A stretch of DNA of 64,000 nt from an uncultured Prevotellaceae bacterium (lineage in GTDB: Bacteria > Bacteroidota > Bacteroidia > Bacteroidales > Bacteroidaceae): positions 1 to 64,000 of the forward strand of contig CAMKTJ010000001.1 in NCBI GenBank assembly GCA_946415645.1, written 5' to 3'. Below, piece by piece: positions 32,199 through 34,837 of the stretch. Position numbers and translations under genes: made by a program. The notes below the pieces were generated by a model. That model was not told the DNA's origin, ran no database searches, and saw only the letters and a list, made by a program, of their open reading frames with translations. Within the stretch, counting starts at the first letter, position 1; each line of letters begins with the position of its first letter.

Positions 32199-32228
32199 TT
32201 GAGCATTGAACATTATTTCTTATTTTTG
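32199..32228 (+). promoter_or_regulatory. Bacteroidota-type promoter
   Basis: TTG at 32199-32201, 19-nt spacer, TATTTTTG at 32221-32228; precedes MRNFFFIF at 32238. Confidence 0.55.
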
Positions 32229-32237
32229 CATCCGAAA

Positions 32238-32882
32238 ATGAGAAATTTCTTCTTTATATTCAGTTTATTCCTCCTTCTTTCTAATGTTGCAAGAGCACAG
32301 GGAGAGGATTTGGGTGACCTTGTTATTCCACAGGAGCCACGAGCATATAAACTGAAAATTCAACGCTACAGATATAAGAATCCAACCATAGAAAACGGAG
32401 ATACCATCTGGACCTATACCTGGGAACCAGGTGTATATTATTTTGCGCCCATCAAGTTCAAGAACGAAAAGCAAAGAAGGGATTTCAACAAGCTTGTTTA
32501 TAACGTCAAGAAAGTACTGCCTATTGCTCAACGTGTGAATAGCATCATTGGCGAAACCTACGAGATACTGGAGACGCTGCCCGACAAAAAATCCAAGCAG
32601 CAGCATATAGCCAATGTTGAAAGGGATATAAAGCAACAGTACACACCAGAAATGAAAAAACTTACCTATAGTCAAGGTAAGTTGTTAATAAAACTGGTTG
32701 ACAGAGAATGCAACCAGAATTCCTACGAGATAGTAAAAGCTTTCTTCGGTCCTACCAAAGCAACCTTCTATCAGATCTTTGCCTGGACATTCCGTGCCTC
32801 ACTGAAGAAAGAATATAAGCCTGAAGATGACGACAAACTTATTGAGCGGGTTGTCCTTTTAGTAGAAACTGGTCAGCTATAG
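32238..32882 (+). CDS. DUF4294 domain-containing exported protein
   Basis: MRNFFFIFSLFLLLSNVARAQ signal; RDFNKLVYNVKKVLPIAQRVNSIIGETYE; TYSQGKLLIKLVDREC. Confidence 0.85.
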   Translation: MRNFFFIFSLFLLLSNVARAQGEDLGDLVIPQEPRAYKLKIQRYRYKNPTIENGDTIWTYTWEPGVYYFAPIKFKNEKQRRDFNKLVYNVKKVLPIAQRVNSIIGETYEILETLPDKKSKQQHIANVERDIKQQYTPEMKKLTYSQGKLLIKLVDRECNQNSYEIVKAFFGPTKATFYQIFAWTFRASLKKEYKPEDDDKLIERVVLLVETGQL

Positions 32883-33387
32883 ACCATATTATAATACCAG
32901 CCGTTACGCTAACGTTCATACTGTGCTTGGTTCCGAACTGAGGAATCTCTATACAGCCGTCGCACATATCAACAACCTCTTGCTGAACACCTTTCACCTC
33001 GTTGCCCAATACCACGGCATATTTTTTATTCTTATCAGGTTGAAAGTTCTGCAGCATGGTACTGCCCTCGCATTGTTCAATAGCCAAAACGGTATAACCC
33101 ATAGTTTTCAACCACTCTACAGCATCCTGTGTCTGCTGAAAGTACTTCCATTCTACACTATCCTCAGCTCCAAGGGCCGTCTTGTGTATCTCTGGATGAG
33201 GAGGCTGGGCAGTAATACCACAAAGACAAATACCCTGTACCAGGAAGGCATCACTAGTACGAAATACACTTCCTACATTATACAAGCTTCTTACATGATC
33301 CAGTACAACTACCAACGGAAGTTTGTTAGAGTCCTTGAACTCCTCAACACTCTTCCTGCCCATTTCTGTTACCTTCAGTTTCCTCAT
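32839..33387 (-). CDS. TrmH/SpoU-family RNA methyltransferase
   Basis: VVLDHVRSLYNVGSVFRTSDAF, KYAVVLGNEVKGVQQEVVDMCDGCIEIPQFGTKHSMNVSVTAGIIIW; ATG at 33387 (ORF extends to GTG 33405). Confidence 0.94.
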   Translation of the reverse strand: MRKLKVTEMGRKSVEEFKDSNKLPLVVVLDHVRSLYNVGSVFRTSDAFLVQGICLCGITAQPPHPEIHKTALGAEDSVEWKYFQQTQDAVEWLKTMGYTVLAIEQCEGSTMLQNFQPDKNKKYAVVLGNEVKGVQQEVVDMCDGCIEIPQFGTKHSMNVSVTAGIIIWSIADQFLLKGQPAQ

Positions 33388-33397
33388 CCAATCAAAG

Positions 33398-33844
33398 TTT
33401 TCCACAAAATTAACAAAATATGTTGATAACTATGGTAAAACCCTGTGGAAATATATTGGATTATTAACAAAAAAGTGTGCATAACCCTGCCTAAAATAGT
33501 TATTAACAAAAGGCAGGAAAGATATTAAAGCCGTTTCAACACAATTTTCTTGAGTTATTAAACCAATATATGAGATAAAATTTTTATATTTGCAAGTTAT
33601 AAACAGGTGTTGAAAACTTTCTTCCAAAAAGTTGAAGCAGAACATATAAAAAGAAGTAAAAGAGCAAGTTAAAGAGCAATGAGGTATAATGAATGATTGT
33701 TGATAAGTATGTTGATAAGAGCACGGAAATGTGAATTGTATATTTATGCAGCATATTATCCTTAGTTATTAACATTATCAACACCCCATCATCATCATCA
33801 TTAAGTATTCTTTTTAAAAGAGGAAAAATAAAATATAATAATAT
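33398..33844. other. oriC: candidate chromosomal replication origin (oriC)
   Basis: Long AT-rich divergent intergenic region; DnaA-box-like sites TTTTCCACA 33398-33406, TGTTGATAA 33421-33429, TGTGGAAAT 33444-33452, TTATTAACA 33461-33469, TGTGCATAA (=TTATGCACA) 33476-33484, TGTTGATAA 33698-33706 and 33710-33718, TTATCAACA 33775-33783. Confidence 0.6.
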
Positions 33845-34837
33845 ATGGTTGATAAAAAGTGGAAAGAACTGGGATATATAGATGAACCCATCCCAGAGGG
33901 AGTAGATATTAAGGCCGAGATTAAGCGTATGTGTAAAGAGAAGAATGCCGTTATTATGGCACACTATTACACAGACGGGGCCATTCAGGATATAGCAGAT
34001 TTTATTGGCGACAGTCTTGCCCTTGCCCAGAAAGCAGCCAAGACGGATGCCGACATCATAGTAATGTGTGGTGTTCACTTCATGGGTGAGACCAACAAGA
34101 TTCTTTGCCCCAATAAGGTGGTGTTGGTTCCTGATCTGAATGCTACCTGTTCACTGGCTGAGAGTTGTCCTGCAGATGAGTTCTCTGCCTTTGTAAAGGC
34201 TCATCCAGGTCATACGGTTATAAGCTATGTAAATACCACAGCTGCCACAAAGGCTGTTACGGATGTTGTTGTAACCAGCAGCAATGCCAAGCAGATTGTA
34301 GAGAGTTTCCCAAAGGATGAGAAGATAATATTCGGTCCTGATGAGAACCTGGGAAATTTCATCAACAGTATTACTGGCCGTAATATGGTATTGTGGAATG
34401 GATGCTGCCATGTTCATGCTAAGTTCTCCTTGGAGAAGATACTGAAGCTGAAGGCTGAACATCCCAAGGCTAAGGTACTGGTGCATCCTGAATGTAAGGG
34501 TGCTGTGGTGAAGGTAGCTGATAAGGTAGGCAGTACAGCAGCCTTGCTGAAGTTCAGTATCAGCGATGAGGCAACAGAGTTTATTGTAGCAACAGAGAGT
34601 GGTATCCTGCATGAGATGCAGAAGGCCTGCCCACAGAAGACCTTCATTCCTGCTCCGCCAGACGACAGTACCTGTGCCTGCAACGAGTGCAATTACATGA
34701 AGCTTATCACCATGCAGAAACTCTACAACTGCCTGAAATACGAATGGCCAACAGTAGAGGTGGATAAGGATGTAGCAACCAAAGCTGTTAAGTCCATCAA
34801 CAAAATGCTAAAGATTTCAGAGAAGTTAGGATTGTAG
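33845..34837 (+). CDS. nadA: quinolinate synthase
   Basis: 330 aa; KNAVIMAHYYTDGAIQDIADFIGDSLALAQ, CGVHFMGETNKILCP, CACNECNYMKL. Confidence 0.97.
   Translation: MVDKKWKELGYIDEPIPEGVDIKAEIKRMCKEKNAVIMAHYYTDGAIQDIADFIGDSLALAQKAAKTDADIIVMCGVHFMGETNKILCPNKVVLVPDLNATCSLAESCPADEFSAFVKAHPGHTVISYVNTTAATKAVTDVVVTSSNAKQIVESFPKDEKIIFGPDENLGNFINSITGRNMVLWNGCCHVHAKFSLEKILKLKAEHPKAKVLVHPECKGAVVKVADKVGSTAALLKFSISDEATEFIVATESGILHEMQKACPQKTFIPAPPDDSTCACNECNYMKLITMQKLYNCLKYEWPTVEVDKDVATKAVKSINKMLKISEKLGL

Follow-up and report, generated by a model that had tools for sequence, protein, structure and literature searches.

A putative chromosomal replication origin between spoU and nadA in an uncultured Prevotellaceae bacterium, with a variant triplet motif and altered DnaA pocket residues

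The basal unwinding system (BUS) of Bacillus subtilis relies on DnaA-trios with the consensus 3'-GAT-5', of which R202 and E228 of DnaA capture the guanine and N187 captures the adenine, and I190 and I193 adjoin the third base (PMC10721633). According to PMC8287927, a BUS can be searched for as a DnaA box with ≤2 mismatches, usually in tandem, a spacer of ≤16 bp, and ≥3 3'-NAN-5' triplets; in the published set, the spacer averages 4 bp (PMC6669920, PMC8287927, PMC10721633). The B. subtilis origin also needs a distal subregion of boxes (PMC6669920). For Bacteroidetes, PMC4755523 describes oriC as commonly located far from dnaA and places the predicted oriC of chromosome I of Prevotella intermedia OMA14 at 1,498,452-1,498,927. 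Here, we analysed a window of 64,000 nucleotides (positions 1 to 64,000 of contig CAMKTJ010000001.1) from an uncultured Prevotellaceae bacterium, for which a sequence-only reading had suggested a candidate chromosomal origin between an RNA methyltransferase gene and nadA. Skew, box density, synteny and a conserved core support this suggestion, and 33388-33844 is very probably the chromosomal replication origin (oriC), for which we propose a scheme of opening and of base capture by DnaA.

A cluster of DnaA boxes at a GC-skew switch

Based on Pfam domain matches, the gap is flanked by the divergent genes spoU and nadA (Table 1), as in the earlier description of about 440 bp of AT-rich, noncoding DNA between divergent genes. 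The SpoU ORF has a GTG start at 33405 and, as compared with Phocaeicola vulgatus, a conserved ATG start (MRKL...) at 33387; because the GTG lies upstream of the conserved MRKL start, we took 33388-33844 as the noncoding gap.

Table 1. Features of the putative origin and its flanking genes (window coordinates)
Feature	Position	Strand	Remarks
SpoU-family RNA methyltransferase gene	32839-33387	-	PF00588; left flank, recurrent beside the proposed Bacteroidales origin
Putative oriC region	33388-33844	.	457 bp, 74% AT, intergenic, about 12 DnaA-box-like 9-mers
Distal box pair	33398-33406 and 33421-33429	+ and -	TTTTCCACA (33398-33406, +) and TTATCAACA (33421-33429, -)
Further boxes	33444-33508		ATTTCCACA 33444 -; TTATTAACA 33461 +; TTATGCACA 33476 -; TTATTAACA 33500 +
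Converging weak boxes	33597-33616		TTATAAACA 33597 +; TTTTCAACA 33608 -; kept in close relatives
TTATCAACA box pair	33698-33718	-	left-facing, starts 12 bp apart
Tandem co-oriented DnaA boxes TTATTAACA and TTATCAACA	33766-33783	+	proposed anchor of the unwinding element
GC-rich spacer CCCC	33784-33787	+	4 nt, length conserved
Trio-like repeat ATC ATC ATC ATC ATT	33788-33802	+	bottom strand 3'-TAG TAG TAG TAG TAA-5'
Proposed duplex-unwinding element	33796-33845	.	least stable 50 bp of the locus
nadA, quinolinate synthase	33845-34837	+	PF02445; right flank, recurrent beside the proposed origin

All 9-mers listed in the sequence-only reading were found at the given position and strand, including the two reverse-complement boxes 12 bp apart (TTATCAACA at 33698 and 33710), while two weaker boxes, TTATAAACA and TTTTCAACA, were absent from that list. 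The box cluster is well above chance, as expected for a DnaA-dependent oriC. Six boxes in the gap have ≤1 mismatch to TTATCCACA, whereas dinucleotide shuffles average 0.20 (0 of 2,000 shuffles reached six), and TTATNNACA is present nine times, compared with 0.29 in dinucleotide shuffles (0 of 2,000 reached nine). No box occurs in the 11 further windows of the 196-kb contig that are AT-rich (≥0.68), so that box density, a comparison on which the earlier proposal was to be judged, is far higher in the gap. The 2.885-Mb assembly has 58 TTATCAACA sites, of which 4 lie within 363 bp in the gap. Among 55 distinct gaps, TTATNNACA has a mean of 3.6 per gap versus 0.24 after shuffling, and a left-facing box is located ≤150 bp from spoU in 35. 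The blocks around the boxes are almost unchanged among close relatives, and the distal pair at 33398-33429 is near-invariant in the six closest relatives.

The gap also contains a strongly conserved TTTTTATATTTGCAA at window positions 33581-33595, inside the putative origin, and a conserved TATATTTGC beside the weak boxes at 33597-33616. We take TATATTTGC/TTTTTATATTTGCAA to fit the -7 element of Bacteroidota promoters (consensus TAnnTTTG), and the nadA transcription start may lie inside oriC.

GC skew was computed on the whole 196-kb contig, in a draft genome of 80 contigs that is 87% complete, and on sampled stretches of relatives. On this one contig, the cumulative minimum is at 33,414, within the interval of 33.4 to 33.8 kb in which it should fall if the sequence-only reading were correct. 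Because gene orientation also creates skew, we fitted the third-position skew (GC3) of 141 predicted genes by regression, with strand and side as predictors, and tried 88 breakpoints; the best breakpoint, first of the 88, fell at 34,000, and side had an effect with a t of 6.1 at the gap. At the homologous gap, two Paraprevotella contigs had a t of 15.2 and 11.7, a Bacteroides contig 10.1, and a Phocaeicola contig 7.8, in each case with the break ≤2.5 kb from the gap. The signal was weak in three close Prevotella-type contigs (G125, G050, and G127; t of 1.9 to 3.6, best break elsewhere) and mixed in five contigs of other families. Among the latter, G095 had a t of 7.4 but its best break 30 kb off, G074 and G100 had a t of about 2.2, G114 had a t of 3.1, and G088 (37 kb) had no break; the raw cumulative minimum was ≤0.6 kb from the core described below in G088, G100, and G114 (in G114 at the edge of the stretch).

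The cleanest case among the genomes compared is the complete chromosome of P. vulgatus, in which the stretches sampled at 0.1 to 1.5 Mb have a negative skew, as have those at 4.4 and 4.9 Mb, whereas the skew is positive between 1.54 and 3.9 Mb. The local minimum at 1,539,822 is beside spoU (1,538,751-1,539,275) and 40 bp from the core, whereas the record begins with dnaA, at a distance of 1.54 Mb. Thus, the switch from negative to positive skew expected at a DnaA-dependent oriC is present at this locus. In the genome analysed here, dnaA is on a contig other than that of the gap.

A box-spacer-triplet core and the DnaA pocket

The most informative part of the gap, which was absent from the sequence-only reading, is the repeat of ATC triplets that immediately follows the tandem boxes. 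Positions 33766-33802 fit the BUS search rule with the boxes TTATTAACA and TTATCAACA, a spacer of 4, and five 3'-NAN-5' triplets; the boxes are in tandem and within 16 bp of the triplets, and the number of triplets is above the minimum of three. Based on nearest-neighbour energies, 33796-33845 ranks as the 44th least stable of 195,718 on the contig and overlaps, then extends past, the triplets, providing a candidate for the adjacent duplex-unwinding element expected of a DnaA-dependent oriC. Of the two unwinding elements proposed earlier, the right one is the stronger (least stable 50 bp from 33796) and the left one (approximately 33541-33600) comes second.

The layout on the nadA-proximal side is shared among relatives and consists of the boxes TTATnnACA and nTATYAACA, a 4-nt spacer, four to five ATY triplets, and a T/A tract. 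The core with its fixed 4-nt spacer is present in approximately 53 of the 55 distinct gaps. Within the triplets, the A is kept in 95 to 100%, the T in 76 to 98%, and the third base is mostly C/T, percentages that are somewhat flattering, since in each gap they refer to the position with the highest score. At 33766, a matrix built from this core gives 50 bits, or 48.8 bits with the own clade left out of the matrix; the next-best score on either strand of the contig is 7.6 bits. Among 20 other families of the order, nine have a core of 26 to 40 bits upstream of nadA, at -42 to -105 from its start, with every other position of these nine loci at ≤7 bits. Because these 20 families are not in the matrix, they provide out-of-sample support for the core. 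In a pattern search of 158 genomes of the order, 98 had a match, which is commoner than for the reversed-pattern control, many of the one-mismatch matches surely being chance.

In G162, two exact copies of TATCAACACACCATTATCATTAT (box plus triplet) face each other about 40 bp apart on two contigs (C261:1562-1626 and C288:2713-2775); they could represent an unwinding element that is double and symmetrical, or belong to a mobile element.

The triplet motif deviates from the consensus of the sole mechanism with a solved complex. The consensus 3'-GAT-5' is replaced by 3'-TA(G/A)-5' in the 55 distinct gaps, and the repeat in the window is devoid of any 3'-GA-5'. We also considered the repeat, read as CAT, as a classical DnaA-trio and rejected this because CTA, the top-strand form of 3'-GAT-5', occurs in none of its frames.

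We aligned the DnaA encoded by this genome with that of B. subtilis, for which a structure is solved (8btg), and with a panel of DnaA proteins, in which the Bacteroidota rows are of the Bacteroidales type only. At the positions of N187, I190, I193, R202, and E228, this DnaA has V, T, I, M, and A, respectively; P. vulgatus has V, T, V, I, and T, and Parabacteroides distasonis has V, T, I, L, and T. Three faecal sequences, which are filed as phage but are DnaA-like and nearest to Bacteroidales, have T/S/A, T/Q, V/Y, I, and T/A. Altogether, the eight Bacteroidales-type proteins have V/T/S/A, T/Q, I/V/Y, M/I/L, and A/T, whereas those from other phyla (E. coli, Priestia, Monoglobus, Acetoanaerobium, Arthrobacter, Nonomuraea, Paracoccus, Thermotoga, and Aquifex) have N/Q/Y, I/V, I/L/M, R/K, and E. 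Thus, the residues of the BUS-type pocket are not kept in Bacteroidales, and the arginine finger R264 is kept across the rows compared. The contact at which the Bacteroidales site departs from that of Bacillus is therefore also the one at which the reader departs, and the change in the pocket and the change in the triplet may be causally linked.

Because the core fits the BUS rule and the least stable DNA lies beyond it, we infer that DnaA binds and opens the strands at the core by anchoring, extension, and AT-rich opening. In the proposed scheme, DnaA would bind the box cluster of the gap, and a pair of DnaA molecules on the co-oriented boxes at 33766-33783 would serve as the anchor from which a DnaA-ATP oligomer would grow rightwards across the 4-nt GC spacer and grip the bottom strand of the triplets at 33788-33802. 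The very weak duplex at 33796-33845 would then melt, the helicase would be loaded, and replication would proceed bidirectionally. The boxes on the spoU side, notably the pair at 33398-33429, may form a distal subregion from which DnaA is supplied to the core. The single-strand motif in Bacteroidales would be 3'-TA(G/A)-5', and the base-capture pocket of DnaA would be altered at the matching contacts.

Alternatively, the gap could be an oriC in which the ATC repeat is not a trio contacted by DnaA and opening depends on another single-strand motif or on the AT-rich stretch alone, as in the loop-back scheme of E. coli. The difference of the triplet from 3'-GAT-5' and the lack, in Bacteroidales DnaA, of the residues that capture 3'-GA-5' are in agreement with this possibility. 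However, the 4-nt spacing to the co-oriented boxes is fixed, the triplet period is kept over four to five units, and the A and T positions are near-invariant in the 55 distinct gaps and in other families, a combination that is hard to explain without an in-register, sequence-specific contact. Moreover, it is the positions of the initiator specific motif (ISM) pocket that have changed, while the arginine finger has been kept. We therefore consider opening without a trio unlikely. We lean slightly towards the reading that origin opening in Bacteroidales has been re-coded from 3'-GAT-5' to 3'-TA(G/A)-5' together with the DnaA pocket (N187, R202, and E228 lost), with the geometry of boxes, spacer, and triplets kept.

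Gene context in relatives

Among 80 named nadA loci, spoU is divergent from and adjoins nadA in 41, with a gap that is nearly always 350 to 530 bp. The arrangement of spoU, AT-rich gap, and nadA thus occupies a conserved position across the order, with losses, as expected for a DnaA-dependent oriC, and the core and the skew switch recur with it in relatives, so that the comparison of synteny and box conservation suggested with the earlier proposal turns out in its favour. A DUF4294 gene (window 32220-32882) adjoins spoU, and P. vulgatus has a similar gene on the left side of spoU (L148 3112-3708); therefore, the conserved block looks like DUF4294 - spoU - oriC - nadA.

In most loci, the core is located 42 to 105 bp ahead of the nadA start, which, like the conservation of the promoter-like TATATTTGC in the gap, would also fit a control region (operator or leader) of nadA or spoU rather than an origin. 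Three observations argue against this. First, no divergent spoU adjoins nadA in 39 of the named loci, of which 28 score <10 bits across the whole locus, and the core therefore does not travel with nadA. Second, the core and nadA of P. vulgatus are separated by a gene encoding an outer-membrane beta-barrel protein (OMP_b-brl_3), and both the core (27.9 bits, at 1,539,782) and the skew minimum lie on the side of spoU, at a distance of 2.6 kb from nadA; because they stay together away from nadA, the element belongs to the origin and not to nadA. Third, a genome-scale skew switch is not expected from a nadA operator. In addition, an Rfam search of the locus gave no match and found no leader. We therefore regard a control region as very improbable.

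In P. vulgatus ATCC 8482, a stretch of approximately 45 bp from the origin's right end (atttctttttttgaaagaaggagaaaaaatatagatataat) flanks the OMP_b-brl_3 gene on both sides (L148 4782-7420; 1,539,782-1,542,420), as if the insertion had duplicated the edge of the origin.

In P. bivia, P. denticola, and Hallella bergensis, which were chosen as large-contig controls, nadA and spoU are separate and neither has the core or DnaA boxes; therefore, the origin is elsewhere in these species and has evidently lost the spoU/nadA gene context. The skew samples of P. bivia were noisy.

E. coli has box clusters that are not origins, and the gap could likewise be a DnaA-titrating, datA-like cluster with the true origin elsewhere, but this is the least credible reading of all, given that the skew switches at the locus in this and several other genomes and that the gap is both the sole TTATCAACA cluster of the assembly (no other two sites are ≤1 kb apart) and the sole match to the core pattern in its genome.

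Comparison with known origins

As an origin, the locus is ordinary, Bacteroidota origins away from dnaA having been published already, as PMC4755523 documents, and databases of predicted origins probably hold it for complete relatives. Our search of the freely accessible literature found no paper on a Bacteroides/Bacteroidetes oriC with nadA, DnaA-trio, BUS, or initiator specific motif. The variant triplet and the changed pocket were likewise not found in the literature searched, which covered the main text of PMC8287927; the supplementary figures of that paper span nine phyla, and a phylum-level trio logo may already exist.

The result locates the origin in Prevotella and other Bacteroidales, which are among the commonest gut and rumen bacteria and in which dnaA is no landmark, and knowledge of its position aids coverage-based estimates of growth rate and genome finishing. 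The model of nucleobase capture in origin opening can also be tested on this natural variation: the positions at which initiator and site depart from those of Bacillus are precisely the ones in contact, so that swaps of residues and triplets between the two systems could reveal the specificity determinants.

The predicted oriC of P. intermedia OMA14, from the same broad group, is similar to the present locus in having approximately 0.48 kb and several DnaA boxes and in being located at a GC-skew transition far from dnaA (PMC4755523). The E. coli oriC is similar in its cluster of same-type 9-mer boxes beside an unstable AT-rich region, whereas the flanks here are spoU and nadA. With the BUS of B. 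subtilis (boxes #6/#7 and DnaA-trios), as described in PMC6669920, PMC8287927, and PMC10721633, the locus shares two adjacent co-oriented boxes, a short GC-rich spacer, ≥3 bottom-strand 3'-NAN-5' triplets, AT-rich DNA beyond these, and a distal box subregion. It differs from the BUS in that the triplets are 3'-TA(G/A)-5' rather than the 3'-GAT-5' of Bacillus, the better-matching box is the downstream one rather than, as is typical, the upstream one, oriC is not beside dnaA, and the DnaA residues that capture 3'-GA-5' (N187, R202, and E228) are replaced.
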